From Myxococcales bacterium (GTDB taxonomy: Bacteria; Myxococcota_A; Polyangia; Polyangiales; Polyangiaceae), in contig CAHJWM010000046.1 in NCBI GenBank assembly GCA_903642325.1, positions 1 to 37,310 on the forward strand: a stretch of 37,310 nucleotides of DNA, read 5' to 3'. Positions 3,387 through 24,340 of this stretch are shown piece by piece. A program made the position numbers and the translations under genes. The notes under the pieces are model-generated. The model saw nothing but the letters and a program-made list of their open reading frames with translations. It did no database searches and had not been told where the DNA came from. The number at the start of each line of letters is the position of its first letter. Position 1 is the stretch's first letter.

Positions 3387-3433
3387 GCGCTACCGGCTCG
3401 GCCGTCCTCGCTGCCGGTGCTCTGCGCTGTTTT
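3386..3433 (+). terminator. Possible terminator hairpin after the DUF763 gene
   Basis: Just past the stop codon, AGCGC (3386-3390) and ACCGGC (3392-3397) can pair with GCCGGT (3413-3418) and GCGCT (3424-3428), and a short T run (GTTTTG) follows. The stem has a five-base bulge on one side and the T tract is short, so this is a weak intrinsic-terminator candidate. Confidence 0.3.
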
Positions 3434-3531
3434 GCACAACGGCACTTTGTTCATGGGCGCGAGCTCGTTGGCGTTGATGACCACCGTGCTCTATTGATAA
3501 GAGTCGCGACTCTAGCAAGTCGGAGCGAGCC

Positions 3532-4776
3532 ATGAAATTCACGCCGTATCAGAGCTTCGTCATTGCCGTGCTGGCGTTTCTGCAGTTCACCGTCGTCCTC
3601 GATTTCATGATTCTCTCGCCGCTGGGTGCACTTCTTTTGCAGGAGCTGCACATCAGCACCAGGCAATTCGGCGCGGTGGTCTCCGCCTATGCGTTCAGCG
3701 CCAGCGCCGCCGGGTTACTTGCGGCCGGGTTCGCCGACAAGTTCGATCGCAAGAAACTGCTGCTCTTTTTTTACTGCGGTTTCGTACTGGGCACGTTCTT
3801 CTGTGGGATCGCACCAAGCTATCCGTTTTTATTCGCCGCCCGGATGGTGACGGGGTTGTTCGGCGGCGTCATCGGCTCCATCAGCTTTGCCATCGTCGCC
3901 GACCTGTTTCCGTTCGAGGCGCGCGGTCGCGTCATGGGCTTCGTCATGACCGCCTTTTCTGCGAGTCAAATCCTTGGCATTCCCGTCGGTCTCTATCTTT
4001 CCAATCGCTGGGGTTGGCACGCACCGTTCCTGATGATCGTGGCCATCGGTTCCGCCGTCGGAGTCGTGATCGCCGTGCGACTGAGACCGATCGACCAGCA
4101 CTTGAAGATCCCGTCCGATCGCAATGCGCTCCGACACCTGTTGGCGACGCTGGCCGAGCCGGGCTATTTTTGGGCGTTTGCGGCCACCATGCTGCTCGCC
4201 GTCGGCGGCTTCATGCTCATGCCCTTCGGCAGCACGTTCAGCGTTTACAACCTCGGCATCCCCATGAACAAGCTGCCCATGGTTTACATGGCGACGGGCA
4301 TCGCTTCCATCATCGCGGGGCCGGTGCTGGGTCGTTGGAGCGATGCCATTGGCAAGTACACGATGTTCTGCATTGCTTCGGGCATGGGCATCGCGCTCGT
4401 CATCTACTATTGCCGTCTCGGGGTCACCCCGCTCCCGATCGTGATCGCCGTCAACATGGTGCTGTTCATCACCGTGACCGCGCGCATGATCTCGGCCCAA
4501 GCTCTGTCCTCGGCGGTGCCCGCTCCCAACGACCGCGGCGCCTTCATGGCCATCAACGCGTCCCTGCAACAATTGGCCGGCGGCGTGGCATCGTCGGCGG
4601 CAGGCTTCATCGTCGTGCAAACGCCGCAGGGCTCGCTCGCACACTATGGAGAGCTTGGGTATGTCGTAGCGGCGGCGATGCTAGCCAGTGTTATCTTGAT
4701 GTCCCAGGTCAACCGCACGGTGCGCGCCAAGCTCGCGGCGGCAAAAGTGCCGGTCAGCCCTTCGCCCAGCGTTTGA
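3532..4776 (+). CDS. MFS transporter, DHA1-like efflux permease
   Basis: A 414-residue protein of the major facilitator superfamily with about twelve membrane helices. The first helix carries VVLDFMILSPLG. The loop between helices 2 and 3 has the family motif A in the form GFADKFDRKKLL (about residues 66-77), and helix 4 follows with ARMVTGLFGG. This arrangement fits drug/sugar-efflux permeases of the DHA1 or AraJ type, which export small molecules using the proton gradient; the substrate cannot be predicted. The ATG at 3532 is preceded by GGAG-like bases (cggagcgagcc) at suitable spacing. The gene stands alone between intergenic gaps of about 150 bases. A 271-residue frame on the opposite strand is a shadow. 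Confidence 0.88.
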   Translation: MKFTPYQSFVIAVLAFLQFTVVLDFMILSPLGALLLQELHISTRQFGAVVSAYAFSASAAGLLAAGFADKFDRKKLLLFFYCGFVLGTFFCGIAPSYPFLFAARMVTGLFGGVIGSISFAIVADLFPFEARGRVMGFVMTAFSASQILGIPVGLYLSNRWGWHAPFLMIVAIGSAVGVVIAVRLRPIDQHLKIPSDRNALRHLLATLAEPGYFWAFAATMLLAVGGFMLMPFGSTFSVYNLGIPMNKLPMVYMATGIASIIAGPVLGRWSDAIGKYTMFCIASGMGIALVIYYCRLGVTPLPIVIAVNMVLFITVTARMISAQALSSAVPAPNDRGAFMAINASLQQLAGGVASSAAGFIVVQTPQGSLAHYGELGYVVAAAMLASVILMSQVNRTVRAKLAAAKVPVSPSPSV

Positions 4777-4949
4777 GGGCCACGGCGAGCTGCGCCTGAA
4801 GAGCAGGTCAGCGCCGGCCGAGCCTCGGTTCTATGGTTCTGCGCACGGCGAAATTTTTGCCTCGACGGGAAGATCGTCCAATCCGTGTCGATTGTGTGAC
4901 CGATCGTGATCGATCCGTTGACGCGGCGGACACATCGAAGCGAGGACAG

Positions 4950-6041
4950 ATGGGCTCAATTTTGTTTCGTGGTGGCGGCGTGGTTTGGGCGGCTACGGTC
5001 CTAAGCGGCCTTGCATTACTGCATTGTTCCTCGTCGACGGACGGAGGAGGTACGGCCAGCGCGGGCGCGAGCACTGGGCACGGTGGGGCGAGCGGCTCGG
5101 CAGCGCAGCCCACGGCGGCGGGGGCGGGGCAAGGAGGCACCGGAGGCAGCTCACTCGGTTCTATTGGCGGCGGCGGTACTGCAAGCTTGGACGGTGGCGG
5201 CGCGGGCGTCAGTGGCAGCGCCGGGGCCAGTAGCAGCGCCGGGGCCAGTGGCAGCGTGGGAGTCAGCGGCGGCGTGGGCGTCAGTGGCGGCGCGGGCGTC
5301 AGTGGCAGCGCCGGGGTCGGTGGCAGCGCGGGTAGCGGCGGCACGGTGGATGTCTCGAAGCTCGATAAGTTCAGCTTCTTCGTCACCAGTATGGTCGCCA
5401 TGCGCAAGCTTTCTGGCAGCCAAAATGGCTTCGGTGGCGATTTCACTTACGGCACGGGGGATGGCCTGAAAGGCGCCGATAAAATCTGCACGGAGATCGC
5501 CGAGTCATCCATGCCTGGCTCGGGCGCGAAGCAGTGGCACGCCTTCTTGAGCACCAGCAAGGTAGATGCCGCCACCCGCATCGGCAGCGGACCCTGGTGG
5601 GATCGGAGGCAGCGCTTGATCGCCAACAACTTGAGCGAGCTGCTGCAAGATCGCCCGAGCACCGCCAGCAGCGTCATCAAGCAAGATTTGCCGAACGAAA
5701 CCGGCCTCGGTAATCATCGCCCGGATTTGACCAAGCCGGAGGACGACAACCACCACACGCTGACTGGATCCAACGCGCAGGGCAAATTGTACAGCGCAAC
5801 GGCCACCTGCAAAGATTGGACGACCAGCAGCACGGACAACAAGACTACCGGGCGACCGCGCATCGGCTTCTGCTGGTCCACCCAGGGCCGTACGAATTGG
5901 GTTTCAGGCCAAGACGAAGGCGGCTGCGGCGCGGGCGTGACGGGCGTGGGCACGGAGAACGGCGGCTCCAATCCGAATAACCCAATCGTGGGCTCGGGCG
6001 GCGGTTACGGTGCTATCTATTGTTTTGCGATGGTCCAGTGA
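4950..6041 (+). CDS. Secreted/lipoprotein with Gly-Ser-Val repeat linker
   Basis: A 363-residue exported protein. The N-terminus has a hydrophobic signal (VVWAATVLSGLALL) ending at Cys26 followed by SSS. The residue before Cys is His, so the lipobox is non-canonical and processing is uncertain. Residues about 27-130 form a Gly/Ser/Ala/Val linker, including eight hexapeptide units such as GAGVSG. The globular part, from about residue 135 on, starts KFSFFVTSM and contains GADKICTEIAESS, GSGPWWDRR and a Cys-rich end (GFCWSTQ, GAIYCFA). This recalls the endostatin/lectin-like fold of DUF1554-type proteins, but only loosely. ATG 4950 follows GAGG at 4942-4945; a longer frame from 4833 lacks a signal peptide. 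The next lipoprotein gene starts 7 bases after the stop, so the two are likely co-transcribed. Confidence 0.75.
   Translation: MGSILFRGGGVVWAATVLSGLALLHCSSSTDGGGTASAGASTGHGGASGSAAQPTAAGAGQGGTGGSSLGSIGGGGTASLDGGGAGVSGSAGASSSAGASGSVGVSGGVGVSGGAGVSGSAGVGGSAGSGGTVDVSKLDKFSFFVTSMVAMRKLSGSQNGFGGDFTYGTGDGLKGADKICTEIAESSMPGSGAKQWHAFLSTSKVDAATRIGSGPWWDRRQRLIANNLSELLQDRPSTASSVIKQDLPNETGLGNHRPDLTKPEDDNHHTLTGSNAQGKLYSATATCKDWTTSSTDNKTTGRPRIGFCWSTQGRTNWVSGQDEGGCGAGVTGVGTENGGSNPNNPIVGSGGGYGAIYCFAMVQ
5199..5342 (+). repeat. 18-bp imperfect tandem repeats coding a hexapeptide linker
   Basis: Eight consecutive 18-base units inside the lipoprotein gene encode GAGVSG, SAGASS, SAGASG, SVGVSG, GVGVSG, GAGVSG, SAGVGG and SAGSGG. 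Units differ mainly at third positions and at Ala/Val codons. The array probably expands or contracts by slippage or recombination and sets the length of the flexible linker between membrane anchor and folded domain. Confidence 0.8.
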
Positions 6042-7118: not shown

Positions 7119-7697
7119 ATGAGGACCAACAGACTCGAAGCCTTCAGCGATGGCGTGCTCGCGATCCTGATCACGATTATGGTGCTGGAGCTCAGAGTCC
7201 CCCACGGCGCCAATCTGGAAGCGTTGCACCACATCACTCCCGTCTTGTGCGCTTATGTGCTGAGCTTCATATACGTCGGTATCTATTGGAACAACCACCA
7301 CCATATGCTGCACACCACGGATCGAGTGAGCGGCGGTATTTTGTGGGCTAATTTGCACCTTTTGTTTTGGTTGTCGCTGATCCCCTTCGCGACCGATTGG
7401 ATGGGCGAGAACCACCTTGCGCCGCTGCCTACCGCCCTGTACGGCGCTGTCTTGTTCGCTTCTGCCGTGGCTTACCTGATCTTGCAGGCCACGATCATCC
7501 GCCGCCAAGGAGCGGGCTCCAAGCTGCGTGCGTTCATTGGACGGGACGTCAAGGGCAAGCTGTCGGCGGTTTTATATGTCCTTGGCATCGGCTTCAGCTT
7601 CCTGCATACCGCCGTGGCGCAGCTGATTTATGCGAGCGTGGCCGGTCTTTGGCTCGTTCCGGATCCGCGCATCGAAGCCAAACTCGCCGAAGACTAA
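7119..7697 (+). CDS. TMEM175-type (DUF1211) potassium channel subunit
   Basis: A 192-residue membrane protein starting RLEAFSDGVLAILITIMVLE. The R..xFSDGV.AI..TIMVL signature of its first helix is that of the TMEM175/DUF1211 family. Bacterial members have six membrane helices per subunit and assemble as tetrameric potassium-selective channels, with hydrophobic residues of helix 1 forming the gate; no P-loop filter is used. The second helix region holds IYWNNHHHMLH, also typical of bacterial members. Length is right for the single-repeat bacterial form. ATG 7119 is only two residues ahead of the conserved Arg. The gene is preceded by 74 bases of non-coding DNA and followed by a gene pair unrelated in function. 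Confidence 0.88.
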   Translation: MRTNRLEAFSDGVLAILITIMVLELRVPHGANLEALHHITPVLCAYVLSFIYVGIYWNNHHHMLHTTDRVSGGILWANLHLLFWLSLIPFATDWMGENHLAPLPTALYGAVLFASAVAYLILQATIIRRQGAGSKLRAFIGRDVKGKLSAVLYVLGIGFSFLHTAVAQLIYASVAGLWLVPDPRIEAKLAED

Positions 7698-9180: not shown

Positions 9181-9564
9181 GAATCGGACCGTAAGCGAAC
9201 GGTCCCACCCCCTCGTTCGTCGGAGACGAACCGCGGTTGACGACCGCAATTCGAACTGCCAACCACTTGGCCGGCGCTAGCGACGGTCCTCGACCTATTC
9301 TTGATGGGCACAAAGCACGGCGCGGCCTTCCTAGCCTTCGGCGTCGAGGCCCGATGGCGGACCCGAACGCGGCGGGCCCATCGACCCAAGACGCGCCGGC
9401 CTACTTACCCGTCGGCGTGGCCCGTTCTCGGAGGCCGGGTCAGCGCCTCCCGTCAGCGCCTCCCCTTTGCGCATTCTGCGGTCCTGCACTCGCTGGCCGG
9501 TCAGAGCGCAGCTCGCCCGGGTCCGTCGCGTCGCCAAGCCAATTGGCGGAGCTTAGATGAAAGT
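9181..9564. other. Intergenic stretch with a short tandem duplication
   Basis: Nearly 400 bases between the divergent XRE gene and the Fur site. Several overlapping open frames on both strands are Arg/Pro-rich and lack family resemblance, so I call none. A perfect 13-base direct repeat (gtcagcgcctccc) occurs twice in tandem at 9439-9464. The AT content rises sharply after about 9550, where the Fur-box region begins. Confidence 0.5.
9439..9464. repeat. Perfect tandem duplication of 13 bp
   Basis: gtcagcgcctccc is present twice back to back, at 9439-9451 and 9452-9464, in non-coding DNA. It looks like a replication-slippage product; no function is implied. Confidence 0.8.
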
Positions 9565-9583
9565 GATATTGAGAATCATTTTC
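9565..9583 (+). promoter_or_regulatory. Fur box (strong match)
   Basis: The 19 bases GATATTGAGAATCATTTTC match the classical Fur consensus GATAATGATAATCATTATC at 16 of 19 positions and sit in an AT-rich island within very GC-rich DNA. A TTGACT hexamer follows at 9593-9598 and TTAAAT lies at 9585-9590, so the site is placed to block a promoter firing to the right. The first plausible gene in that direction is the zinc-finger gene at 9734. Iron-dependent repression is inferred from the site alone. Confidence 0.75.
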
Positions 9584-9733
9584 ATTAAATCCTTGACTGA
9601 GGTCGGGGCGGCATGAGATTGCTGAAGCCGTGTCACCCGCTCGCGATGCAAGCGGTAAGCGGTTATTCAGCCAGTCAGTCGCGAGGCGGCGGGCGGCGAC
9701 GCAACTCGGAAAGCGTGTTCCCTCGAGGAGCCA

Positions 9734-12155: not shown

Positions 12156-13007
12156 TCAGGAGACCGACGGAGGAAGCGTGCCGGTGGTTTTCGGGCCGGC
12201 GATTTGCTCGACTTGAACGTCCTTCCGACGCAGCGTGTCGTGGATCGTTTCGTCGCGTTCTTCGACTGTCTTGCCGACTACCACTTCTTCGACTACCCGA
12301 GCGCGCTTCTCGACCACTGCTTCTTCCCCCATCGCCGTCACGTCGATCGAACGCTCTTTGAAGGCGAGGTCGCTCGCATCCGCCGCGCGATTGACCGGTC
12401 GACGTTCGACGTTTACGCGCTCTTCTCGGAGCTTGACTAGCTCTTGCACTGGCCGCTCTTCGATGTAGCTGTGAATTCGCACCCCGCCGCGCTGAACGAC
12501 GCGGGTCCCGATCGCCAATTCCTCCTGCACTACGTCAAGCTTCGCGGGCTCGTCGCTCGAGTAGGCCGCCAGCTCGCGAGCGCGCTCGGCCTCCGTAAAT
12601 TGGGAGGCCGACGCATCGACCTGACCCGTATAGCCATTGGCCTTCCAATATTCCGATCGTTTCGTGACATCGACGCTGCCGACCTGATTCAACACGCTCG
12701 CCGCTTCATCGACTTTGTCGGATTCCACGTCTGCAACCACGACGAAGTGCCCACGCCTAACGGCTTCAGTGTAATCGTGCGCTTCCTGCCGATCGACGCC
12801 ATCGGACTCTTCGAAAATTGACCCAAACCATGCGCTGGCTTTTTCCACCCAAGTCTTGTTGGTTGGGTCCGCCGCACTCGCGCCGGAAGCATCCGAGTTA
12901 TCGAGCAAGCGCGCGTGGTCGGAATTGACGCCGATGCTCGCCAGCTTTTGCAATGCGCTCTGCGCGGCTTCCAGGGTGTCGAACGTTCCGACTAATGTTT
13001 TTGCCAT
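12156..13007 (-). CDS. YflT-like plus YsnF/AvaK (DUF2382) stress protein
   Basis: A 283-residue soluble protein with two parts. Residues 1-100 (AKTLVGTFDTLEAAQSALQKLASIGV, later AVRRGHFVVVADV) resemble the YflT/general-stress-protein-17M domain, an alpha-beta fold of bacterial heat- and stress-induced proteins. Residues about 155-270 form a YsnF/AvaK domain (DUF2382): repeated EEL.I..RVV..G.V.I...IEERPV..LV.LREERV.VERRPV strings that give long beta strands of alternating charge. Function of DUF2382 is not established; it is linked to stress response in Bacillus and cyanobacteria. The start codon at 13005-13007 overlaps the upstream DUF2382 gene by 16 bases, implying translational coupling. 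The DNA is unusually repetitive in Glu/Arg/Val codons. Confidence 0.85.
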   Translation of the reverse strand: MAKTLVGTFDTLEAAQSALQKLASIGVNSDHARLLDNSDASGASAADPTNKTWVEKASAWFGSIFEESDGVDRQEAHDYTEAVRRGHFVVVADVESDKVDEAASVLNQVGSVDVTKRSEYWKANGYTGQVDASASQFTEAERARELAAYSSDEPAKLDVVQEELAIGTRVVQRGGVRIHSYIEERPVQELVKLREERVNVERRPVNRAADASDLAFKERSIDVTAMGEEAVVEKRARVVEEVVVGKTVEERDETIHDTLRRKDVQVEQIAGPKTTGTLPPSVS

Positions 13008-13672
13008 GCTATACCTTCATTCTCTGGTTGTTGTGGGGTTTCTGAGCCAAGTGTTTGGGCCTGCGGCGCGTCGTCGATGTGCTCTACGAGCACTTGCTCA
13101 CTGCGCAGCGTGACGGTTTCAGAGCGCGTTTGTCGGGACAGAGAGCGGGTCACGCGCACTTCCTCTCGCAGCACGAGGCGCTTCTCGACGACGTATATTT
13201 CTTCATAGACGGGCACGATCAACGTGTCGCCTTCGGTGCGAGGCGCCGCCGCGACGTCCACGATGCGACCGATGGCGACGCGCTCGATCGATACCTCCTC
13301 ATTGTTGGTTTCAAGCTCGACGACCTCATCACGAGTTGAAACGTGGGTCGTGACCCGCACATGATCGCGTATCACCGGCACTTTGTTGACGTGCAGCGAT
13401 TCCTCGAGCGCTTCGAATGTTTCCTCGACGATCTCGAGCGACCCCTCCTGGCCTTCGAGCTTCAGTTGATTACCGCTCGTTTGCGCGACGCGCGGGGCGT
13501 CGAACGCGCGCGCGTAGCGGAAGCCTTCCGCCGTATGCTCGACCAGCGAGCGGGGGACGAGTACGTGTCTGCCACTCGGCAACGTCACATCGAGGCGGTT
13601 CGGATCAGTGCGATCAGTCACCGCGGCGGCGCGAATTCCACAAGCGTCCAGCACGACAAAGGGTTCTTCCAA
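12992..13672 (-). CDS. YsnF/AvaK (DUF2382) domain protein
   Basis: A 226-residue protein. Its N-terminal 60 residues (GIRAAAVTDRTDPNRLDVTLPSG, HVLVPRSLVEH) look like a small beta-barrel, perhaps PRC-like. The rest, about 85-205, is a full DUF2382 domain with strings such as VNKVPVIRDHVRVTTHV, NNEEVSIERVAIG and EEIYVVEKRLVLREEVRV. The start is uncertain: an in-frame stop lies at 13682-13684, so only TTG at 13672 or the GTG six codons downstream, which has GGAAGAA upstream, are available. The end overlaps the start of the next - strand gene by 16 bases, making an operon of two related proteins that could co-assemble. Role: general stress, by family association only. Confidence 0.8.
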   Translation of the reverse strand: MEEPFVVLDACGIRAAAVTDRTDPNRLDVTLPSGRHVLVPRSLVEHTAEGFRYARAFDAPRVAQTSGNQLKLEGQEGSLEIVEETFEALEESLHVNKVPVIRDHVRVTTHVSTRDEVVELETNNEEVSIERVAIGRIVDVAAAPRTEGDTLIVPVYEEIYVVEKRLVLREEVRVTRSLSRQTRSETVTLRSEQVLVEHIDDAPQAQTLGSETPQQPENEGIAWQKH

Positions 13673-14189: not shown

Positions 14190-15467
14190 TCAGTCGCCCG
14201 TTACGTGATGCGATACGATGCCGTCGGTAACTAACGGGGAGCTTACGATTCCGATGAGGGCGTGCTTTCGGCAGTGCTCCAAATAGGCTCCCTCGTGCAA
14301 CGCGACGAGGTCGACGACAGCGGCCCAAAGCCATGCGGGCGCACTCAAGTTTTTGGCATTGCCTTTACGAAAACTCTCCAGCCACAACCCGGCGCCAGCG
14401 GGCGTCAACTGTCGGCCATGGGCGACGGCGACGACTCCCGCCAAATAATGACCAATGGCCATCGCTTCATGCTCGCGCAGGGTTTCCAACTCGAATTTCA
14501 AATCTTGCGGCAGGAGCTCGCGAATGAAGACTTGCTTGTCGAGGATGTTGGCGGCGGCCATTCGGTCGCCGAGCGACGGCGAGAGGGCACGAGCGCCGGC
14601 CACGACTCGCTCCCCTTCATGGCTCGGAATCGGAGCCCCCGCGGGGTGCGGCGAGAGCGGCGCCGTAGCTTGCTTGATATCGATGAGTGCCAGGGATTCT
14701 TCCTTGCCGGCACCAACGCGGATCAACGCGGCGGCACGCCAAAGCCCGAGTGAGCTACAGCCTTTGATCCAATAGGCGGCGTCGACCAGCTCGAGCGCGG
14801 CGTCGTGGTGACGCGAAGTCAAGCCAGTGATGAGCTTTCGCGCTTGCGCCGTGTTTACGAGCTCGGCTACCGCCCGCCGCTCTTCGGGCAGGAGCGGCCA
14901 AAAGCGTTTGCCAATCGGGATCTTGCCGTCATTTTTTCCAAGACGCTCGGCGAACAGCTGCTTCCGCGAGCGCGCCCGCGCCTCGCGCAAGACACTCGTC
15001 ACTTGCTCGGGCGGCTTTTCCAAAGAAACCGGGCGCTCGGAAGCGGCCGCCTCCAACACCTCTTCGTACCCGCGCGCGACACTCTCGACCACATGCGCGG
15101 TGATCGCTCCGGGCAGCCCCGATGCCCGCACTGCCATTGCCAGGGATAGGGTCAAGCGAACGACGTCGTGAGCGGGAGAACCCATCACGGTTTGATCCAG
15201 ATCGCGCAACACGATCGAGATCTCCGAGTCCTTTGCGGCGACGGGGCCCAAATTGCCCACGTGACAGTCGCCGCCGATCCAGATCGTAGGCGCTTCGGGC
15301 AAAGACTGGCCCCGCGCGCTCGCCAGCCACTCGTAGAAGCGCTTGGTGCTCCCCCGGACGTACGCATGCGCGCTCGACGACATCTTCGCTTCACGTCTGG
15401 CGTCGAGGAGGGGCAAACGCTCCTCCGGCGAAATGGGAAGCCGTTCTTTGGTTGAATAAGTGCTCAT
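14190..15467 (-). CDS. DUF2252 family protein
   Basis: A 425-residue soluble protein of the DUF2252 family. The conserved centre is IWIGGDCHVGNLG (Asp67, His69, Asn72) followed by ISIVLRDLDQT (Asp89, Asp91) and GSPAHDVVRL. The G-D-x-H-x-x-N then D-x-D arrangement recalls the catalytic and metal loops of aminoglycoside-phosphotransferase/kinase-fold enzymes, so a phosphotransfer role is possible, but no activity is known to me for this family. ATG at 15467 was chosen because the family similarity begins shortly after; the frame continues upstream to 15533, over the divergent kinase leader. The gene is transcribed away from the hybrid kinase at 15730, with 262 bases between them for both promoters. 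Confidence 0.85.
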   Translation of the reverse strand: MSTYSTKERLPISPEERLPLLDARREAKMSSSAHAYVRGSTKRFYEWLASARGQSLPEAPTIWIGGDCHVGNLGPVAAKDSEISIVLRDLDQTVMGSPAHDVVRLTLSLAMAVRASGLPGAITAHVVESVARGYEEVLEAAASERPVSLEKPPEQVTSVLREARARSRKQLFAERLGKNDGKIPIGKRFWPLLPEERRAVAELVNTAQARKLITGLTSRHHDAALELVDAAYWIKGCSSLGLWRAAALIRVGAGKEESLALIDIKQATAPLSPHPAGAPIPSHEGERVVAGARALSPSLGDRMAAANILDKQVFIRELLPQDLKFELETLREHEAMAIGHYLAGVVAVAHGRQLTPAGAGLWLESFRKGNAKNLSAPAWLWAAVVDLVALHEGAYLEHCRKHALIGIVSSPLVTDGIVSHHVTGD

Positions 15468-15729
15468 GTCTAATGTTCGCGTTTGCTCGGAAAGCGTCGA
15501 CACCGTACATCGCAAAGACGACTTACGCTTCAAAGAAGCGCTCGAATGTTTGACCGTTCCCGAACGAGGTCACGCGGTTTGTTTCATTCGTCGCTCTCAC
15601 TCGACGAACAGGCGCAATTTGCATCAGCAGCTCGAGCCGCTCGGCGTTGTGATTTGCGACCGCGAGCATTCCGCGCTAACTGACCTCGATGACTCATCAG
15701 CGGATCGCCTCGAAGCATTGAACTTCGAG

Positions 15730-17985
15730 ATGTCACTTCGAATAAAGTTCGCGGCGGTCTTCGCGTCTGCGGCGTTGGTCCTAGTGGTCGCCGCCGCCGC
15801 CTACGTGTCGCTTTCCTATGAAAGCAACTCGCAAGCTTGGGTTAGTCACACTTACGATGTCATCGATGCGCTCCGCAAGGTAGAATTACGCGTGGCGGAA
15901 GCGGAGGCCGCACAGCGTAATTATCTGCTCTCGGGGGACCCGACTTACCTTACGACGTTTCGCGAAGAGCAAGCGCGAGCCATAGCATCGGTTCCAGTCG
16001 TGCGCCGGCTGACGATCGATAACGCGAGCCAGGGTGTACGCGTCGCCCGCCTGGACGCAGCGGTGAAGGCCCGCATGGCTTACTTTGCCGAGACCGCCGA
16101 GCTGTATGAGAGCGCCGGTTTGCCCGCGGCGATGCAACGAATCACCGGCACCCAAGGTCGAGCTTTGACCTCGAACCTGCACTCGATGTCGGCCGAGATG
16201 GTGAACGAGGAGCGACGGCTGCTTGCACTCCGCTCGAGCCAGGCATCCGGCCGCACGCTGGCCACCAAAGCCGTGCTCGTCGTCGGAAGCCTGCTCTCGT
16301 TTTTGCTGGCGATTCAGACGATGCGCAAGTTGCAGGGCGAAGTCGAGCATCGCGAGCGCGCGCGGCATCTGATCGAAGAGCAGGCAAAGCGTCTCGAAGA
16401 GCAAGCACTCGTGCTGGAAGCCAGTAAGGAAGCCGCGGAAGCAGCTAATCGCACGAAGAGCATGTTTCTAGCAAATATGAGTCACGAGCTCCGCACTCCT
16501 CTGAATGCGGTGATCGGTTACAGCGAAATGCTGCAGGAAGAAGCGGAGGAGCGCGGCGTTGGCGCATTCATACCGGATCTGCAGAGCATCCACACCGCTG
16601 GCAAGCACCTGCTCGGGCTAATCAATGACGTGCTCGACCTCTCGAAGATAGAAGCCGGCAAGATGGATCTTTATATCGAGGATTTCGATATCAAGGAAAT
16701 GCTGCAGGACGTGACTGCCACCATCAAGCCTTTGATCGCACAACGAGGAAACACCTTCGAGCTGATAGGCGGGGAGCTCGGTGTCATGCACGCGGATCTC
16801 ACGAAGGTACGTCAGACGCTGTTCAACATTTTGTCGAACGCGAGCAAATTCACCGATCACGGGCAGATTCGCTTGGAGGCCAAAGTGGACGAGCCGGATG
16901 CCGAGCCGTGGCTTTCGATACATATCTCCGACACCGGCATCGGCATGACGACCGACCAGGTCTCGCGCCTGTTCGAGCCGTTTACGCAAGCTGACGCATC
17001 GACTACGCGCAAGTTCGGTGGCACCGGGCTAGGGCTGGCTATTTCGCGGCGGTTCTGCCGGCTAATGGGCGGCGATGTCAGCGTCGTTAGCGCCAAGGGC
17101 AGCGGTTCGACGTTCACGGTGTCGTTGCCCATGTCCGTCAAACGCGCCGACCGCGAAACTTCTCTGCCGGCCGCGAGAAGGGAGTCGCGCCACGACCCGC
17201 GGGTGGGTGAGAGCGTCTTGGTCATCGATGATGATCCGGACACTCGCGACTTGATGGAGCGTTACCTCGAGAAAGAGGGCTTCGCCGTCCGCACGGCCGC
17301 GACCGGCGAGGAAGGGCTGCAGCTCGCCCGCGACCTTCGGCCTTTGGCGATCACCCTCGACGTCATGATGCCGAGCACGGATGGCTGGGCCGTCCTGACC
17401 GAGCTGAAAGCGGACCCGAACCTGCGTGAGATTCCGGTGATCATGTTGACGATGGTCAGCGATCGCGGCCTCGGATACCGACTCGGAGCCTCTGAATTTC
17501 TCACCAAACCTCTGGATCGCAAGCGCCTCTCGCTCGTACTGCGTAAGTATCGTTCGGGCGCAGTCCCCCATACGGTGTTGCTGATCGAAGACGATGAGCC
17601 GACGCGCCGCATGACCCGGCAGCTACTCGAAAAAGACAGCTGGACGGTGAAAGAGGCGGAGAACGGCGAAGCGGCGTTGGACCGCGTCGCCGAGCTCACG
17701 CCGGATGTAATTTTGCTCGACTTGATGATGCCGGAGATGGACGGTTTTCAATTCGTCGAGGCACTCCGCGAGCACCCCGAGTGGCGTTCGATTCCGATCA
17801 TCGTTCTTACGGCTAAGGACATCACCGAGGAAGATCGCTCGAGGCTCAACGGTTGCGTCGAAAAGATCGTGCGCAAAGGGTCTTACGATCGGCAAAATCT
17901 TCTGAGCGACGTCCGCGACATCGTCGCCAAGCACGCGCAATCGCGCGCGGCTCAAGTCGCCACTCCGGAACAAAGCGATGCCTAA
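15730..17985 (+). CDS. CHASE3 hybrid histidine kinase with two receivers
   Basis: A 751-residue membrane sensor kinase. Helix 1 (about 7-27) and helix 2 (about 177-197) bracket a periplasmic CHASE3-like domain (AEAAQRNYLLSGDPTYL). A coiled coil leads to HisKA with [10 protein letters not shown], phospho-acceptor His252, and HATPase_c with NILSNASKFT (N box), DTGIGM (G1) and GGTGLGLAI (G2). Two receivers follow: VLVIDDDPDTRDL with Asp544, and VLLIEDDEPTRRM with Asp664. In the first, the stretch where the switch Thr is expected reads MLTMVSDR, so check it. The last 8 bases overlap the single receiver gene, so the two are coupled. ATG 15730 sits at the first helix; the frame runs further upstream (to 15460) but overlaps the divergent gene. 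The ligand is unknown. Confidence 0.9.
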   Translation: MSLRIKFAAVFASAALVLVVAAAAYVSLSYESNSQAWVSHTYDVIDALRKVELRVAEAEAAQRNYLLSGDPTYLTTFREEQARAIASVPVVRRLTIDNASQGVRVARLDAAVKARMAYFAETAELYESAGLPAAMQRITGTQGRALTSNLHSMSAEMVNEERRLLALRSSQASGRTLATKAVLVVGSLLSFLLAIQTMRKLQGEVEHRERARHLIEEQAKRLEEQALVLEASKEAAEAANRTKSMFLANMSHELRTPLNAVIGYSEMLQEEAEERGVGAFIPDLQSIHTAGKHLLGLINDVLDLSKIEAGKMDLYIEDFDIKEMLQDVTATIKPLIAQRGNTFELIGGELGVMHADLTKVRQTLFNILSNASKFTDHGQIRLEAKVDEPDAEPWLSIHISDTGIGMTTDQVSRLFEPFTQADASTTRKFGGTGLGLAISRRFCRLMGGDVSVVSAKGSGSTFTVSLPMSVKRADRETSLPAARRESRHDPRVGESVLVIDDDPDTRDLMERYLEKEGFAVRTAATGEEGLQLARDLRPLAITLDVMMPSTDGWAVLTELKADPNLREIPVIMLTMVSDRGLGYRLGASEFLTKPLDRKRLSLVLRKYRSGAVPHTVLLIEDDEPTRRMTRQLLEKDSWTVKEAENGEAALDRVAELTPDVILLDLMMPEMDGFQFVEALREHPEWRSIPIIVLTAKDITEEDRSRLNGCVEKIVRKGSYDRQNLLSDVRDIVAKHAQSRAAQVATPEQSDA

Positions 17986-18352
17986 AATATTGTTGGTCGA
18001 GGATAACGAAAAGAATTGGGACATGCTTTCGCGTCGCTTACGGCGACGTGGGTACGAGGTCGTGCTCGCGTTCGATGGCGCGCAAGGCGTCGCGATGGCG
18101 CGGGCAGACAAGCCGGATTTGGTGCTGATGGACATGAGCTTACCGGTCATGGACGGCTGGGAGGCTACTCGGCAAATCAAAGCTTCCACGGAGACGTCGA
18201 CCATTCCCGTCATCGCCCTCACCGCTCACGCCATGTCGGGCGATCGCGAAAAGGCGCGCTTGGCCGGCTGCGACGATTACCATCCCAAGCCGGTCGATTT
18301 GGCCGCATTGCTCACGCAGATTGAAGCGGCGCTGACCAAGAGCGGCACATAA
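17978..18352 (+). CDS. Single-domain response regulator (DivK-like receiver)
   Basis: A 124-residue protein made of a single receiver domain: ILLVEDNEKN acidic pocket (Glu8, Asp9), phospho-acceptor Asp52 in LVLMDMSLPVMDG, switch Thr in VIALTAHAM and the conserved Lys in HPKPVD. There is no output domain, so it works as a phosphate shuttle or by protein contact, as DivK-type receivers do. It starts 8 bases inside the end of the hybrid kinase gene and precedes a second kinase by 37 bases, so all three are probably one operon and this receiver may carry phosphate between them. The W14 in the first helix (NEKNWDML) is typical of receivers next to such kinases. Confidence 0.9.
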   Translation: MPKILLVEDNEKNWDMLSRRLRRRGYEVVLAFDGAQGVAMARADKPDLVLMDMSLPVMDGWEATRQIKASTETSTIPVIALTAHAMSGDREKARLAGCDDYHPKPVDLAALLTQIEAALTKSGT

Positions 18353-18389: not shown

Positions 18390-20186
18390 ATGCGAGACGA
18401 AACGATATCAAGCGCAGGCCCATTCGAGCAGGCGCCCGGCAGCCGAAATCAGAAGGCGCTGCTCGTTGCGTCCGCGCTGGCGTTGGGCTTTTTGTGCACC
18501 ACCGCTTATGTCCGTCTGCGCCGGGCGGCCGTCGAGCGGCGGCGCTCGGAGTCGTTGATTCGCGAGAGCGAGGCTCGCACGGGAGCGATCCTGGCCGCGG
18601 CCCTCGACGCCATCATCACCATCGACGAACGCGGATCGATTGCCGAGTTCAACCCCGCTGCGGAGCGAATTTTTGGCTATCGCCGCTCGGAGGTGCTCGG
18701 GCTCGGGTTCGGGCTCCTCGTCCCGCGGGCGGCGGGCGATCGACGTCACGGTTTTTCGCATTACTTGCAAAGCGAAGGTCACTCCCCACTCGGCGCGCGC
18801 ACGGAGGTAAGCGCTACGCGCGCCGACGGGCAAGAGCTCACTATCGAGCTTTCGATCAACGCCATCGAGGTACATGGCCCGCCTATGTTCACGGCCTATA
18901 TTCGCGACATCAGCGAGCGCAAGCGCGAGGAAGTGGCGGCGGCCGAGCGCGTGCACCTTGCGGCCTTGGCCGCCGACGTTGGGTACGCCCTCAGTCGAGG
19001 CGATAGCTTACCCTCGATGTTGAATCATTGTTGCGATGTCCTCGTCCAACATTTGGATGCGGCGTTCGCGAGAATCTGGACATTGGACGAACGCGAGAAC
19101 GTGCTCGTGCTTCGAGCCAGCTCGGGGATGTACACCCATTTGGATGGACCGCACGGGCGCGTGCCGGTCGGCAAGTTCAAGATCGGCCTGATCGCGGCCG
19201 AGCGGCGACCGCACCTGACCAACGACGCGGTCGGTGATCCGCGCGTGGGCGACCAAGACTGGGCGCGCCGCGAAGGGATGGTCGCATTCGCGGGCTACCC
19301 GCTGATGGATGACGAACGGCTCGTGGGAGTCATGGGGATGTTCGCTCGCCACCCCCTTTCGGAAGCGGCACTCCAGGCAATGGCCACCATGGCGACCGGC
19401 GTCGCGCTCGGAATCGAGCGCAAACGCGCCGAGGACGAGCTACGCCGCGCCAAGGACGAGGCGGAAGCGGCCAACCGCGCGAAGAGCGTTTTCTTGGCCA
19501 ATATGAGCCACGAGCTTCGCACGCCGTTGAATGCGATCATCGGCTACAGCGAGCTGCTTCAAGAAGAGGCGACGGCGACTGGTTATGGCAACTTGGTTCC
19601 GGACCTCGAAAAGGTGCTCGAGGCCGGCAAGCATCTATTACACATGATCAACGACATCCTCGATCTCTCGAAGATCGAGGCCGGCAAGATGGACCTCTTC
19701 ATCGAGACTTTCGGCGTTTCAGACGTCATCAGCAGCGTGGTCGACAGTTTGCGGCCATTGATCGAGAGCAGCGGTAACTTCCTGGCCGTCGAAGGCCTCG
19801 ATGACCTGGGGCTCATGCGCAGCGATCTGACCAAGGTTCGTCAAGGGCTTTTGAATCTGGTGAGCAATGCCAACAAGTTCACCAGCAAGGGAACGATCAC
19901 CGTCCGGGGGACGCGCGAGCATCGCGGCAGTTGCGATTGGTTGGTGTTGAGTGTGATCGACAACGGCATTGGGCTGACGGCTGCCCAAATCGCTGGGCTG
20001 TTTCGGCCATTTGCTCAAGCGGACGCCTCGACCACACGCCGGTACGGCGGATCCGGGCTTGGTCTCGTGATCACGCGCAGATTTTGCGAGCTGATGGGGG
20101 GTGAAGTCACCGTCGAGAGCGCTCCCGGGCGTGGCTCCGCGTTCACCATCGGGCTGCCGGCTGACGCTCCGGCCGCCAATACGTGA
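18390..20186 (+). CDS. PAS-GAF sensor histidine kinase
   Basis: A 598-residue kinase. A single membrane helix (about 22-42) is followed by a PAS domain (about 62-180; [20 protein letters not shown], then [13 protein letters not shown]), a GAF domain (about 190-345; [26 protein letters not shown]), a HisKA domain with [10 protein letters not shown] and His374, and HATPase_c with [16 protein letters not shown] and GGSGLGLVI. It ends without a receiver, so it must signal to a separate one, most simply the single-domain receiver just upstream. The GAF domain is a close paralogue of that in the hybrid kinase at 21803, and the catalytic core is related to that of the CHASE3 kinase at 15730. GAF ligand unknown. 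Confidence 0.9.
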
Positions 20187-20205: not shown

Positions 20206-21447
20206 TCAGCGTCGTATTCGGTTTCCGATCACGAATCCGAGCAAGCCGGTGATCGATATACCGATCAGTGCCTGAGCACCGCTCAAGAAATAGACGAACT
20301 CACCGCGCGGCTGAACCCCGATGCCCGGGCTCCCGGAGGTCGTGAGCGCTAATAGGCTAAACACGGCAAGGTCGATGGGCGCGCGCGTTATTACTGGATT
20401 TCGCGAGGCGCCTTGCATACGGACCACGCTGCCGGTGACCCCATAAAGCAGCGTGAAGAATAGATAAACCACGAGCAGCGCCCCGAACACGCGCGGGACG
20501 CTTTCCCCGTAATCGCACAGCCACTCGACCAACTGATCGTTGGCGTATGAGCCGTACAAGCGAGCCGCGCTCCACCAATTGCGCGCTTTACGCTCAGCAA
20601 CCGCGCGCTGTCGTACGTCTTGTTTTTGCATTCGACGACGCTTGCCATAGGCCCATCGCGCCGCGTCCTGATCGCCCAGCTCGGAGAAATTGCGCTCGAG
20701 GGCGAAGTACCCGCGCGCCGCTCCCCGGTAATCCTTCTTGAGCTCTTCGCCCAGCGCTCCGCCGAGCTGCGCCTGCGAGAGCTGGGTCTTTTCCAGACGC
20801 GCCCCGGCAAGATGAACGCCGTGCATATCCGATGACGAGAAATCGAGGCCCTGCAGTTGGGCATCATTGAGATCCGCCCCGCGGAAGCTCGTGCCGCGCA
20901 GGACGACTTGCTGCAAGTTCGCGCCCCTCAGACTCGCGTTTCGCAAGATTGCGTTCACGAGCACCGCGCCTTGTAGATCCGCGCCGTCGAGCTGCGCGCC
21001 TTCGAGATTTGCCTGTTCTAAGATGGAACCGCGGAAGTTTGCGCCGGCAAAGTCGGCTTCGCGCAAATCAGCGCCGTGGAAATCGGCGCGCTCCAAATTC
21101 GCGTTTTCGAAAAAGCATCGCCGGGCATTTGCATAGCGCAGGTTCGCGTCCTGCAGATTGGCGTCCTCGAGCATCGCGTCCTGCAGGTTAGCCTCGCCGA
21201 AAATCGCGCCCTGCAACGACGCCCCCGCCAGATCACTCCCCTCGAGATTGACACCTTCGAGCGTCGCGCCTCGCATGTTCGCCCGTCCGAAGTGCGCAAA
21301 AGCGAAATCCGACTGACTGAGATCCAAGCCCTCGAAATTCACGAGGCGGAGGTTTGCGCCGCGAATGGTCGTGCCTCGTAGCGATAACGTCTCGCCGTCA
21401 ACGCGCGCGGCTAGGATTGCAATCAGGTGTTCTTGGTGCTCAATCAC
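20206..21447 (-). CDS. Pentapeptide-repeat protein with two-helix channel-like pore
   Basis: A 413-residue protein of unusual build. Residues about 20-232 are some forty pentapeptide repeats (A(D/N)LxG type: GANLRLVNF, GADLQGAVL), which fold as a right-handed quadrilateral beta helix. A helical segment (about 237-285, ALERNFSELGDQDAARWAYGKR) leads to a membrane helix at about 320-342, a re-entrant-like segment with TTSGSPG at 369-375 and a last helix at about 386-408. Helix, P-loop, helix is the plan of two-TM potassium channels, but the filter reads TTSGSPG and not T-x-G-Y/F-G, so potassium selectivity is doubtful. Start is GTG at 21447. Convergent with the PAS-GAF kinase (19-base gap). The Fur-like site at 21563 is upstream. 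Confidence 0.85.
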   Translation of the reverse strand: MIEHQEHLIAILAARVDGETLSLRGTTIRGANLRLVNFEGLDLSQSDFAFAHFGRANMRGATLEGVNLEGSDLAGASLQGAIFGEANLQDAMLEDANLQDANLRYANARRCFFENANLERADFHGADLREADFAGANFRGSILEQANLEGAQLDGADLQGAVLVNAILRNASLRGANLQQVVLRGTSFRGADLNDAQLQGLDFSSSDMHGVHLAGARLEKTQLSQAQLGGALGEELKKDYRGAARGYFALERNFSELGDQDAARWAYGKRRRMQKQDVRQRAVAERKARNWWSAARLYGSYANDQLVEWLCDYGESVPRVFGALLVVYLFFTLLYGVTGSVVRMQGASRNPVITRAPIDLAVFSLLALTTSGSPGIGVQPRGEFVYFLSGAQALIGISITGLLGFVIGNRIRR

Positions 21448-21802
21448 TCGCGGTCACCCACTCGGGGCTTGGGCTGCACGCCGGGCCTTGCGGGGGAGCC
21501 TACCTGCTGCTGACCGGTGCGTCACCGTGAAGCGGCTCGAGGCGCCGGCGCGCCGACGAAGTGCAAATGATAATCATCTCCATTTAGCCGTAAGATTCGA
21601 TCATCGAGAGCCGCGCGAGTTTCGCGGCGACGATACTGGCAAAAACGACTCAGTCCGTGTGCCGGCGGCAAATGCGCGCCCGCGCCGCGGTTTTCCCGCA
21701 CGGAAGTGAAATGAGCGGCCTTGCGCCGTGGATGTGAGAGGCTCCCAGCGCTCAGAGCACGATGTTGCTAGCCCGGGCTTCATCGTCAATGCGCACCTAC
21801 CT
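21448..21802. other. Divergent intergenic region with Fur-like site
   Basis: About 355 bases between the divergent pentapeptide-channel gene and the PAS-GAF-PAS kinase. It holds the Fur-box-like palindrome at 21563-21581 and, on the + strand, TAAGAT at 21591-21596 as a possible -10. No coding region was recognised, although the kinase frame remains open back to a GTG at 21728. Confidence 0.5.
21563..21581 (+). promoter_or_regulatory. Fur-box-like palindrome
   Basis: The 19 bases GCAAATGATAATCATCTCC match the Fur consensus GATAATGATAATCATTATC at 14 of 19 positions, including the uninterrupted palindromic core ATGATAATCAT. The site lies 116 bases ahead of the pentapeptide-channel start (- strand) and about 220 bases ahead of the hybrid kinase (+ strand), so either or both could be iron-regulated. 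Confidence 0.62.
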
Positions 21803-24340
21803 ATGACCGCACCCCCTCTAGACATCGGCTCTGACCGCGACCTTCTTCAAGAAAGCGAAGCCAAATACCGTTTTCTTGCGGAAACCATTCCGGTTCAGAT
21901 ATGGACTGCGCTTCCGGACGGAGGGCTCGACTACGTCAGCGAGCAAACCGCGGCGTATTTTGGGCTCACCGTGGAACAACTGCTGGCCGATGGCTGGCAA
22001 AATGTCGTCCACAGCGAGGACCTGTCACTCGTCATCGAGTCGTGGACGCTCGCGTTGAGGACAGGCAACCCGTACGGGGTCGAGTTCCGCTTGAAGAGTG
22101 TAACGGGGGACTACCTTTGGCACCTCGGTCGCGCCGTTCCACAGCGAGACGCTCTCGGTACCGTGGTGCGCTGGTTTGGCACGAATACCAATATCGAAGA
22201 GCAGCGCGCGCACCAGCGGGAAGTCGAATCGTTGCTTGCCCGGCTCCGCGAACAGAACCGACTGCTGGCGCTCGACGCGGAGCTCGCCGCCATATTGGTC
22301 CGCCCTTCATCCTCCTCTGACGTGCTTCAAGCGTGCACCGAAGCGGTCGTGAGGCACCTCGACGCGGCATTCGCACGCATCTGGACGACGAACGATGCGG
22401 GGACGGTACTCGACCTGCAAGCAAGCGCTGGGCTTTACACCCACCTCGACGGCCCCCACGGGCGTATCCCGGTTGGGAAGTTCAAGATCGGTCAAATAGC
22501 CGCCGAACGAACGGCACACTTCACGAATCAGGTCGTTGGCGATCCGCGAGTGAGTGACCAGGATTGGGCGAAAAAGCAGGGGATGATCGCATTTGGCGGC
22601 TGTCCAATCGTGTTCGCAGACAAGGTCGTCGGCGTAATTGCAGTGTTTGCGCGCCACCCGCTCTCGGATGCGGCCCAAACGGGATTGAAGTCCGTGGCTG
22701 ATGCGCTGGCGCAGTCACTCGAGCGCTTGCACTCCGAGGAGAAGGTGCGACTGAGCGAGCTCTGGCTCTCGACGACGCTATCCAGCATCGGAGACGGAGT
22801 CATTGCAACCGATGCGCTGGGCGCCGTCACGTTTTTGAACCCCATCGCGGCCATGCTCACCGGATGGTCGGCCGAGGATGCGTTTGGTAAGTCGATCGAG
22901 GTCGTGTTTCCGATCGTACGCGACGAGACCGGGGCAGCGGTCGAGAGCCCAGTCTCGAACGTATTACGCGAAGGGCGGATCGTCGGCCTCGCCAACCACA
23001 CCGTTCTTTTGCAACGCAATGGCGGAAGGGTGCCGATCGAGGATAGCGCCGCCCCGATCCGTGGTCGAGACGATCGCATCACCGGAGTGGTTCTCGTATT
23101 TCGTGACGCGGGTGAGAAACGGCGCGTCGAAGCGGAAAGGAGCCGATTGCTGGCGGCCGCGGAAGAGGCGCGCGACAAGGCGGACGCCGCCAGCCGGGCA
23201 AAGGACGAATTTTTGGCGACGGCCTCTCATGAGCTTCGCACTCCTTTGAACGCGATCCTCGGTTGGGCTCGCCTGCTACGCGGCGGCGCCCTGGAGCCGA
23301 GCATTTTCGCCCGCGGGCTCGAGACGATCGAGCGCAATGCTTTGGCGCAGGTCCAATTGATCGAAGACATTCTCGACGGCTCGCGCATCATTACCGGCAA
23401 GCTTCAGCTCGAAATTCGCTCTACTGATCTTGCGCTGATCTTGCATGCCGCCGTGGACGCTTTCCGACCTGCGGCGGCGGCCAAGAGCATCGCTCTGAAT
23501 TTGACGCTGGACGAAGCCGCATCGCGCATCCAAGGAGATCCGGATCGGCTGCAGCAGGTCGTGTGGAACTTGGTCAACAATGCGCTGAAGTTCACGCCCA
23601 AATGCGGGCGGATCGACGTGCGACTCGAACGCGTGGGGACTTCCACCGAGGTATCGGTGACCGACAATGGCCAGGGAATCTCGCCAGAATTTTTGCCGCA
23701 TGTGTTCGAGCGCTTTCGACAAGCCGACGGCAGCACGACACGGCGTTCCGGGGGGCTTGGTTTGGGGCTCGCGCTCGTGCGGCACTTGGTCGAAGCCCAT
23801 GGCGGGACCGTGCGGGCCGACAGCAAGGGCGAGGGCCTTGGAGCGTCGTTCACGGTCACTTTACCCGTTCAAGCCGTCTACCCCGAGACGGTCGAGGCGA
23901 TCCGCCTCGCGCCGGTTGGCGGTGTTTCGGGCGTTCCGAGCGCGGCACCGAGCCTGAGCGGCGTCCACATTCTAGTCGTCGACGACGAGCCAGATGCGAG
24001 GGATTTAGTGGCCACGCTGTTGCGCGCGCATGGGGCCGAAGTGGCCGTAGCCAAGTCGGCTGAGTCGGCGCTCGAACAACTTCGAGTACGCGCCCCAACT
24101 GTGCTCATCAGTGATATTGGCATGCCGAACACCGATGGTTATTCACTGATCAGTAGCGTGCGGGCGCTGCCGCATCCCGCGTCCGAGGTCCCCGCCATCG
24201 CGCTCACGGCCTACGCCCGCGAAGAGGACCGGCGTCGAGCGCTGACTGCGGGCTTTCAGAGTTACGCATCTAAACCGGTCGAGCCAGCAGCATTGATTCG
24301 CTTGGTTAGCGAGCTCGCGCGTTCGCGCGCTACGGATTGA
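21803..24340 (+). CDS. PAS-GAF-PAS hybrid histidine kinase with receiver
   Basis: An 845-residue soluble-looking hybrid kinase. Order: PAS_3-type PAS (about 15-137; AETIPVQIWTALPDGGLDYV, then WHLGRAVP), GAF (about 150-315; [26 protein letters not shown]), PAS (about 322-440; LSSIGDGVIATDALGAV), HisKA with [10 protein letters not shown] and His476, HATPase_c (NLVNNALKFT, DNGQGI, GGLGLGLAL), and a receiver (ILVVDDEPDARDL, Asp771 in VLISDIGMPNTDG, switch Thr in IALTAYA, Lys in YASKP). No membrane helix is evident, so it senses a cytoplasmic signal. The start is uncertain: ATG 21803 is taken, while GTG 21728 would add 25 residues of no known domain. Its GAF closely matches that of the 18390 kinase. 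Confidence 0.9.
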   Translation: MTAPPLDIGSDRDLLQESEAKYRFLAETIPVQIWTALPDGGLDYVSEQTAAYFGLTVEQLLADGWQNVVHSEDLSLVIESWTLALRTGNPYGVEFRLKSVTGDYLWHLGRAVPQRDALGTVVRWFGTNTNIEEQRAHQREVESLLARLREQNRLLALDAELAAILVRPSSSSDVLQACTEAVVRHLDAAFARIWTTNDAGTVLDLQASAGLYTHLDGPHGRIPVGKFKIGQIAAERTAHFTNQVVGDPRVSDQDWAKKQGMIAFGGCPIVFADKVVGVIAVFARHPLSDAAQTGLKSVADALAQSLERLHSEEKVRLSELWLSTTLSSIGDGVIATDALGAVTFLNPIAAMLTGWSAEDAFGKSIEVVFPIVRDETGAAVESPVSNVLREGRIVGLANHTVLLQRNGGRVPIEDSAAPIRGRDDRITGVVLVFRDAGEKRRVEAERSRLLAAAEEARDKADAASRAKDEFLATASHELRTPLNAILGWARLLRGGALEPSIFARGLETIERNALAQVQLIEDILDGSRIITGKLQLEIRSTDLALILHAAVDAFRPAAAAKSIALNLTLDEAASRIQGDPDRLQQVVWNLVNNALKFTPKCGRIDVRLERVGTSTEVSVTDNGQGISPEFLPHVFERFRQADGSTTRRSGGLGLGLALVRHLVEAHGGTVRADSKGEGLGASFTVTLPVQAVYPETVEAIRLAPVGGVSGVPSAAPSLSGVHILVVDDEPDARDLVATLLRAHGAEVAVAKSAESALEQLRVRAPTVLISDIGMPNTDGYSLISSVRALPHPASEVPAIALTAYAREEDRRRALTAGFQSYASKPVEPAALIRLVSELARSRATD

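Follow-up and report, generated by a model that had tools for sequence, protein, structure and literature searches.

Results

Domain order of the protein

The window, by which we mean the whole stretch of DNA analysed here (37,310 nucleotides, contig CAHJWM010000046.1 of the Myxococcales bacterium assembly GCA_903642325.1), carries on its minus strand, at 20206..21447, a gene starting with GTG. Its open reading frame, Pfam matches, structural model and homologues describe the 413-aa product as a pentapeptide beta-helix joined to a two-TM pore. The right-handed beta-helix occupies about residues 20-222 (20782..21390, minus strand) and was delimited from PF00805, the pLDDT and the match to HetL. 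PF00805 was found in 7 stretches with 176.8 bits (E 4.3e-53), above the gathering cut-off of 20.2. Sampling every fifth residue from residue 23 gave 42 positions in a single phase, of which 41 hold L, F, I or M, and the "about forty" repeats of the first-pass annotation were thus counted correctly. The modelled beta-helix superimposes on HetL (3du1) with Z 29.1 and rmsd 1.9 over 222 aligned residues. HetL, Qnr and MfpA share this beta-helix with the window protein; they are not known to have a pore, and the window protein reached none of the cut-offs of the HetL, Qnr and MfpA families.

A linker follows at residues 225-316 (20500..20775, minus strand), mostly helical in both of our models and marked by conserved columns. 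It ends with C-D-Y-G-E-S directly before TM1, and in this pre-TM1 motif the glycine of Y-G and a later R are invariant in an 18-row alignment of the family. The outer helix, TM1, spans residues 317-338 (20434..20499), as placed by hydropathy, the model and the match to KirBac3.1. The pore helix (residues 357-369, 20341..20379) was placed by the model and by the distance from the conserved FS to the filter, which is that of most canonical relatives. The altered selectivity filter, T-S-G-S-P-G, lies at residues 370-375 (20323..20340; residues 369-375 read T-T-S-G-S-P-G) and was assigned from alignments, an HMMER profile against KirBac3.1 and a register test described below. The inner helix, TM2, defined from the model and the alignment, covers residues 383-412 (20212..20301, on the minus strand like the other elements) and ends in GNRIRR.

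Predicted fold of the C-terminal part

The structure was predicted for the full protein as a template-free AlphaFold2 monomer, and the C-terminus was also folded alone. The full model has a mean pLDDT of 84, mostly above 90 in the rod after residue 40 and 49-76, in blocks of ten, from residue 311 onward; the C-terminus folded alone has a pLDDT of 71. Against the KirBac3.1 pore the full model gave Z 12.1 with rmsd 2.1 Å over 88 aligned residues (model 316-413) and the isolated C-terminus Z 11.5, while against NaK the latter gave Z 11.4 with rmsd 2.0 over 84 residues, all of these scores lying in the range, below about 13, where Z may reflect an arrangement common in helical folds. The 50 structural neighbours of the pore are nearly all ion channels. 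HalA, the Hailong channel discussed below, is absent among these 50 structural-alignment rows (VIA-align), which excludes nothing.

Foldseek with the C-terminus alone returned no match at E<=0.001. In Pfam, neither the window protein nor its C-terminus matched an ion-channel family, including Ion_trans_2 (PF07885), the comparison proposed by the first-pass annotation; among six subfamily members, Ion_trans_2 matched one, a Nostoc protein, with 38.7 bits against a cut-off of 22.5. A six-row profile of the C-terminal halves of the window protein, four Aureimonas proteins and a Nostoc protein was searched against the PDB sequences. It gave 39 matches at E<=10, the best being KirBac3.1 (E 0.0012), and 37 of them are tetrameric-channel entries: 12 of KirBac3.1 and 25 that we took, by name and length, as NaK and its variants, one being listed only as "Transporter". 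The other two were a tailspike and "Embryo defective 2737". The 18-row family profile matched KirBac3.1 at 3.1e-13. Since these structural neighbours consist almost entirely of ion channels and the sequence profile points the same way, a KirBac/NaK-like fold for the last ~100 residues is, despite the caution on Z, well supported by model and profile together. The succession of helix, P-loop-like turn and helix that had been read from the letters, and the fusion of a pentapeptide beta-helix to a two-helix pore, are therefore borne out by Pfam, the profiles, the fold comparisons and the predicted monomer.

KirBac3.1 and NaK resemble the window protein in their pore fold (Z 11-12), but their filters are TIGYG and TVGDG, against TSGSPG here. 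Neither is known to have a beta-helix, and the soluble domain of KirBac comes after the pore, whereas that of the window protein comes before it. The beta-rod and the linker would lie in the cytoplasm and likely act there as a sensor, to judge by the basic residues that precede TM1 and by those of the C-tail (3 K+R against 0 D+E). This topology is a soft call, as the linker holds 17 K+R but also 13 D+E.

A proline at the second filter glycine

To our 40-row alignment 29 proteins of the window's phylum, four of haloarchaea and one of Aeromonas contributed, together with the window protein, four Aureimonas proteins and one from Nostoc; the protein of a second Nostoc (N. flagelliforme), with an identical filter, was omitted from the count as a near copy. 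At the position of the second filter glycine, 34 of the 40 rows have G and six have P. All 34 glycine rows, which are the more distant relatives and include Aeromonas, fit [TS]-x-G-[YFL]-G-[DNEG]. The proline filters are TSGSPG in the window protein, TSNPPE in three Aureimonas proteins and TANPPE in the fourth, and TIGFPD in Nostoc. The window protein thus departs from the T-x-G-Y-G signature, with T-S-G-S-P in its place, and in Aureimonas the first glycine is gone as well, replaced by Asn. Two extra residues follow the filter in the window and Aureimonas proteins; Nostoc has no such insertion. The first-pass annotation was right in seeing here something other than a standard K+ filter, and the comparison of orthologues that it called for shows the alteration to be common to the nearest relatives, with proline in the five nearest rows and glycine in the other 34.

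The six proline rows fall on one side of a branch in the 40-row tree, with support of 95/78 and in 94% of 200 bootstrap trees, some long-branch joins elsewhere in this tree being flagged unsure. The same split is weaker in an 18-row tree (77/72, 80% of bootstraps). The window and Aureimonas proteins group together at 100/99. A single origin of the proline filter fits these trees, with moderate support.

The alignment register of the proline was examined in 34 pairwise alignments of the window protein, ten of which did not cover it. In 22 of the remaining 24 it stands opposite the second glycine. In the other two it is shifted, and this register would give the window S-P-G-I-G, with two glycines kept. 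For one Aureimonas protein 14 of 19 alignments agree with the main register and five differ. The Nostoc proline lies opposite the second glycine in all 34 of its alignments, and the HMMER alignment of the subfamily profile with KirBac3.1 agrees as well. We regard the register of the window proline as probable and not fully secure.

In the four Aureimonas proteins the pore has dN of 0.08-0.13 against dS of 0.6-1.1, and is therefore under purifying selection. Identity among the four is 78-86% in the pore, 67-82% in the repeats and 63-78% in the linker.

The window's phylum also contains a large family of pentapeptide two-TM channels whose filter is TLG[YF]G[DE] and whose C-terminus resembles NKMARRAD; the C-terminal pattern [NST][KRT][MLV][AGS]RR occurs in 23 of 23 proteins of that family. 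Three further proteins of the phylum make up a second divergent group; their filter is TSGFGD, and the stretch before it is one residue shorter than in the others.

Distribution of the architecture and of the close relatives

Searched at E<=1e-15 against 377 genomes of the window's phylum, probably Myxococcota, the 18-row family profile matched 35, one of them the window's own. We read 29 of the other 34 matches, the remaining five having no locus. By a simple in-phase count, at least 20 pentapeptide-like steps are present in 22 of these 29 proteins and fewer in seven, one of which is cut by a contig end. A plasmid search with the Nostoc C-terminus as query gave 20 records, including its own and that of Aureimonas AU20, and six of the other 18 were read. 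Four of these are haloarchaeal proteins with linker and pore, the Pfam repeats being strong in that of Halorubrum and weak in that of Halorarius; the Haloarcula and Haladaptatus relatives are annotated as pentapeptide repeat proteins. The fifth, from Aeromonas, has linker and pore and no Pfam repeats, and the sixth, from Rhodobacter, is a bare channel.

The pentapeptide two-TM channels of the phylum and of the haloarchaea agree with the window protein in domain order, in the pre-TM1 motif, in the pore and in TM2 and, where annotated, are called pentapeptide repeat or potassium channel proteins. They differ from it in keeping [TS]-x-G-[YFL]-G; the window protein reads T-S-G-S-P there, followed by two additional residues. 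The architecture had been called a rare plan; in view of the matches in 35 of 377 genomes and of the haloarchaeal relatives we reject this, the more so as HalA apparently shares it.

The close relatives are far more scattered. In the window's own taxonomic family the gene was found, at E<=1e-7, in one of 108 genomes, that of the window itself. The others, four from Aureimonas and two from Nostoc, came from the plasmid set and from one scan of a genome collection, which relied on a pair of short peptide patterns and could have overlooked many. This scattered pattern, with one genome of the window's family, Aureimonas and Nostoc, suggests horizontal transfer. Misbinning of the contig was considered and rejected, since the catalytic part of the neighbouring kinase is 63-66% identical in two genomes of the same genus and the contig therefore fits its genome. 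A viral origin was likewise set aside, with no relative in three viral-contig scans. Among literature matches judged by title and the opening of the abstract, in several cases a small share of those returned, we found none on a pentapeptide two-TM channel or on a natural proline filter.

Genes around the pore gene

Histidine kinases lie on both sides of the gene, as had been noted at first sight. A PAS-GAF-HisKA-HATPase sensor kinase (18390..20186, plus strand, from Pfam) is convergent with it and ends 19 bp from it; a PAS-GAF-PAS-HisKA-HATPase-REC hybrid kinase (21728..24340, plus strand, from Pfam) is divergent. Over 150 aa of the GAF part the two are 55% identical.

Aureimonas AU20 and ME7 also have PAS hybrid kinases near their proline-filter genes, with 84% identity between the two. 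At one of these loci the kinase lies upstream of the gene, at the other immediately downstream of it and convergent. Six query kinases found no match in the flanks of the other two Aureimonas and of both Nostoc loci, the A. phyllosphaerae flank searched being short downstream. As to whether the gene keeps its place in a kinase cluster, a hybrid kinase is thus nearby at two of the four Aureimonas loci, and the flanks searched at the other two and at both Nostoc loci show none; the link to the kinases is weak.

Other genes were read at these loci. In A. ureilytica the next gene, by eye, is gyrB. One Nostoc copy is carried by a mobilizable plasmid, where recombination genes and a gene for a COR-domain protein lie close to it. 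In A. phyllosphaerae the stretch 2335-5151 of the locus, upstream of the proline-filter gene, encodes a Beta_protein (PF14350); further genes there, read by eye, look like those of an ImmA/IrrE-like protease and of an sce7726-like protein. Together these genes may be a defence or mobile set.

Within the window, 15460-18352 holds a CHASE3 hybrid kinase with two receivers and directly after it a single-domain response regulator, and the kinase part of the former is ~50% identical to the Aureimonas kinases near proline-filter genes. A TMEM175-type potassium channel (PF06736, E 3.4e-31) is encoded at 7119-7697 on the plus strand. Two adjacent DUF2382 stretches at 12156-13672 lie in different minus-strand frames, their ORFs overlapping by 16 bases, and are possibly two genes or the product of a frameshift.

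A Fur-box-like sequence

Between the gene and the divergent kinase lies a putative Fur-box-like sequence (21563..21581, plus strand) with 14 of 19 matches to a Fur consensus, in a scan that covered the plus strand. In 40 first-order Markov sequences of the window's length, stretches with at least 14 matches occurred at 0.025 per sequence, and the window has two more, near 9.57 and 9.79 kb, so that the motif is above chance within it. Three overlapping Fur-box-like matches at 9559-9589, with 16, 13 and 13 of 19, are stronger than the site by the gene, and Pfam scans beside them recognised no iron gene. Used as a pattern with at most 3 mismatches, the site by the gene was matched 13 times in the genome, over 9 places (1 in the control). 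At two of the seven places other than the site itself and 9.57 kb, the ORFs read by eye were a galactokinase, a lipoprotein and a CAAX-type protease, with no obvious iron gene. The Fur-like site that had been reported is thus present as a sequence; the suggested link to iron, with no iron gene at the two places read, is unsupported, which does not prove it false.

Comparison with HalA

HalA, the effector of the Hailong anti-phage system, is described as a channel that poly-dA adducts of HalB block (PMC13275509). Its PDB entry 9nyi contains four chains of one sequence. In Foldseek the whole window model found 9nyi at rank 43 (E 1.2e-6, 371 columns), as a loose superposition with TMq 0.21 and rmsd 16.8. 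With the C-terminus alone HalA was at rank 1 (E 0.021, probability 0.99, TMq 0.36, rmsd 10.2).

The HalA family model NF051894 gave 19.3 bits with the window protein, best over the repeats, where 250 are needed. In 20 relatives it gave weak matches in 9 and none over the cut-off. Among eight relatives looked at by position, three canonical proteins are matched over the last ~95 positions of the model, one over repeats only, and the Nostoc protein nearly in full (positions 50-338 of 338; 25.8 bits, cut-off 250), while Aureimonas AU20 and two others gave nothing at E<=0.01. A search for HalA in the window's phylum found it in 0 of 377 genomes at E<=1e-12, with a silent control, so that this zero may not mean absence. 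PDB sequence searches did not recover the HalA pore sequence, and the linker profile had weak matches only, of which a kinesin-light-chain-like protein from a bacterium was the best (E 0.016). A Pfam scan of 30 ORFs of the window, the two kinases beside the gene among them, showed no nucleotidyltransferase domain and no counterpart of HalB, and PADLOC of 2023 gave no match.

HalA is like the window's family in having a pentapeptide-like part followed by a C-terminal part (about 243-338 of the model) that the pores of the relatives match. It differs in the extent of its repeats, matched in the HalA model within about 47-149, against ~42 repeats in the window protein. HalA thus appears, by sequence and model, to belong to the same pentapeptide two-TM superfamily, and we infer that the two share ancestry in the pore and perhaps over the whole chain.

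Discussion

How would a protein of this kind work? The reading that we prefer, and to which we give about an even chance of being right as a whole, is that of a tetrameric, HalA-like membrane effector which has lost the outer K+ sites of its filter and forms a poorly selective cation pore under the control of the beta-rod. Four copies would form one pore, lined by the two C-terminal helices and the re-entrant loop. The beta-rod of about 200 residues and the linker would lie in the cytoplasm and be regulatory or ligand-binding, so as to respond to a trigger. Among the window ORFs scanned, no partner gene that might provide such a ligand came to light. Since the second filter glycine is replaced by proline, the outer two K+ sites, formed by the Y-G half of the filter, presumably could no longer form in the usual way, with the inner T-S-G retained. 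Such a pore would pass cations with little discrimination between K+ and Na+, and its opening would depolarise the cell.

The argument for poor selectivity is one of analogy. As described in PMC9822992, the standard TxGYG makes four K+ sites, and NaK (TVGDGN), a non-selective channel, has just the inner pair, S3 and S4. According to PMC10761061, CNG channels with TIGE are non-selective for monovalent cations and have six transmembrane segments per subunit. They are a functional analogy alone, in that the filter has retained its inner half and lost the outer one; their six TM segments and their cyclic-nucleotide binding set them apart from the window protein, and no membership is claimed. The window protein likewise keeps the inner part, T-S-G, with S-P-G as the outer half, and the closest working model is a cation pore of poor selectivity. 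A cation path is not assured, given the loss of the first glycine in Aureimonas and the two extra residues after the filter in the window and Aureimonas proteins. The proteins may, as a more tentative proposal that we consider possible and on balance doubtful, be a separate, horizontally spread clade of beta-rod channels in which the K+ filter has become a proline filter (T-x-x-x-P) and permeation follows a new chemistry, such as a wide path for divalent or organic cations, in a gated depolarising effector.

The odd filter could also be an error of alignment or sequence in an ordinary K+ channel. The S-P-G-I-G of the two shifted alignments speaks for this, but proline occurs at the same place in the four Aureimonas proteins and in Nostoc, where, with no insertion, every alignment sets it against the second glycine. 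Given also the open reading frame and the purifying selection on the Aureimonas genes, we hold this explanation to be very improbable. Somewhat less so, and still unlikely, is a non-conducting sensor, in which the pore fold would be a membrane anchor with a dead filter and the beta-rod would signal to the adjacent sensor kinases. It would account for the loss of one filter glycine, and of both in Aureimonas, for the kinases flanking the window gene and for the PAS hybrid kinase near two of the four Aureimonas genes, in two different arrangements. However, the pore is the best conserved part of the four Aureimonas proteins and the altered filter hardly varies among them, which would be unexpected if it were dead. 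The window gene, moreover, is convergent with one kinase and divergent from the other and hence in an operon with neither, and the flanks searched at the remaining two Aureimonas and at both Nostoc loci gave no relative of these kinases.

The preferred reading, a gated cation effector, is compatible with a further proposal that adds a role to it: a HalA-like effector of abortive defence, shut until phage infection opens it and then arresting or killing the cell. The similarity to HalA in fold and in the family model points this way, as do the sporadic distribution (one of 108 genomes of the window's family), the relative on a mobilizable plasmid and the Aureimonas locus where Beta_protein PF14350 lies, by eye, among defence- or mobile-looking genes. 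Against this, the HalA score of the window protein is far from the cut-off, AU20 has no HalA match at E<=0.01, and PADLOC is silent. The 30 Pfam-scanned window ORFs include neither a nucleotidyltransferase nor any recognised defence gene. We therefore consider a defence role conceivable and, at present, rather doubtful.

In conclusion, the plan of a beta-rod on a two-TM pore is already widespread, and the unusual feature of the window protein is its filter. The comparison suggests that HalA, described as a phage-defence channel, is part of a wider set of bacterial and archaeal beta-rod channels. Few residues of this channel class are as strongly conserved as the second glycine of the K+ filter; this glycine is kept in all 34 more distant relatives aligned, and the proline relatives come from the window's phylum, the Alphaproteobacteria and the Cyanobacteria. 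This proline clade may be regarded as a natural experiment in how the filter scaffold can function without K+ selectivity.
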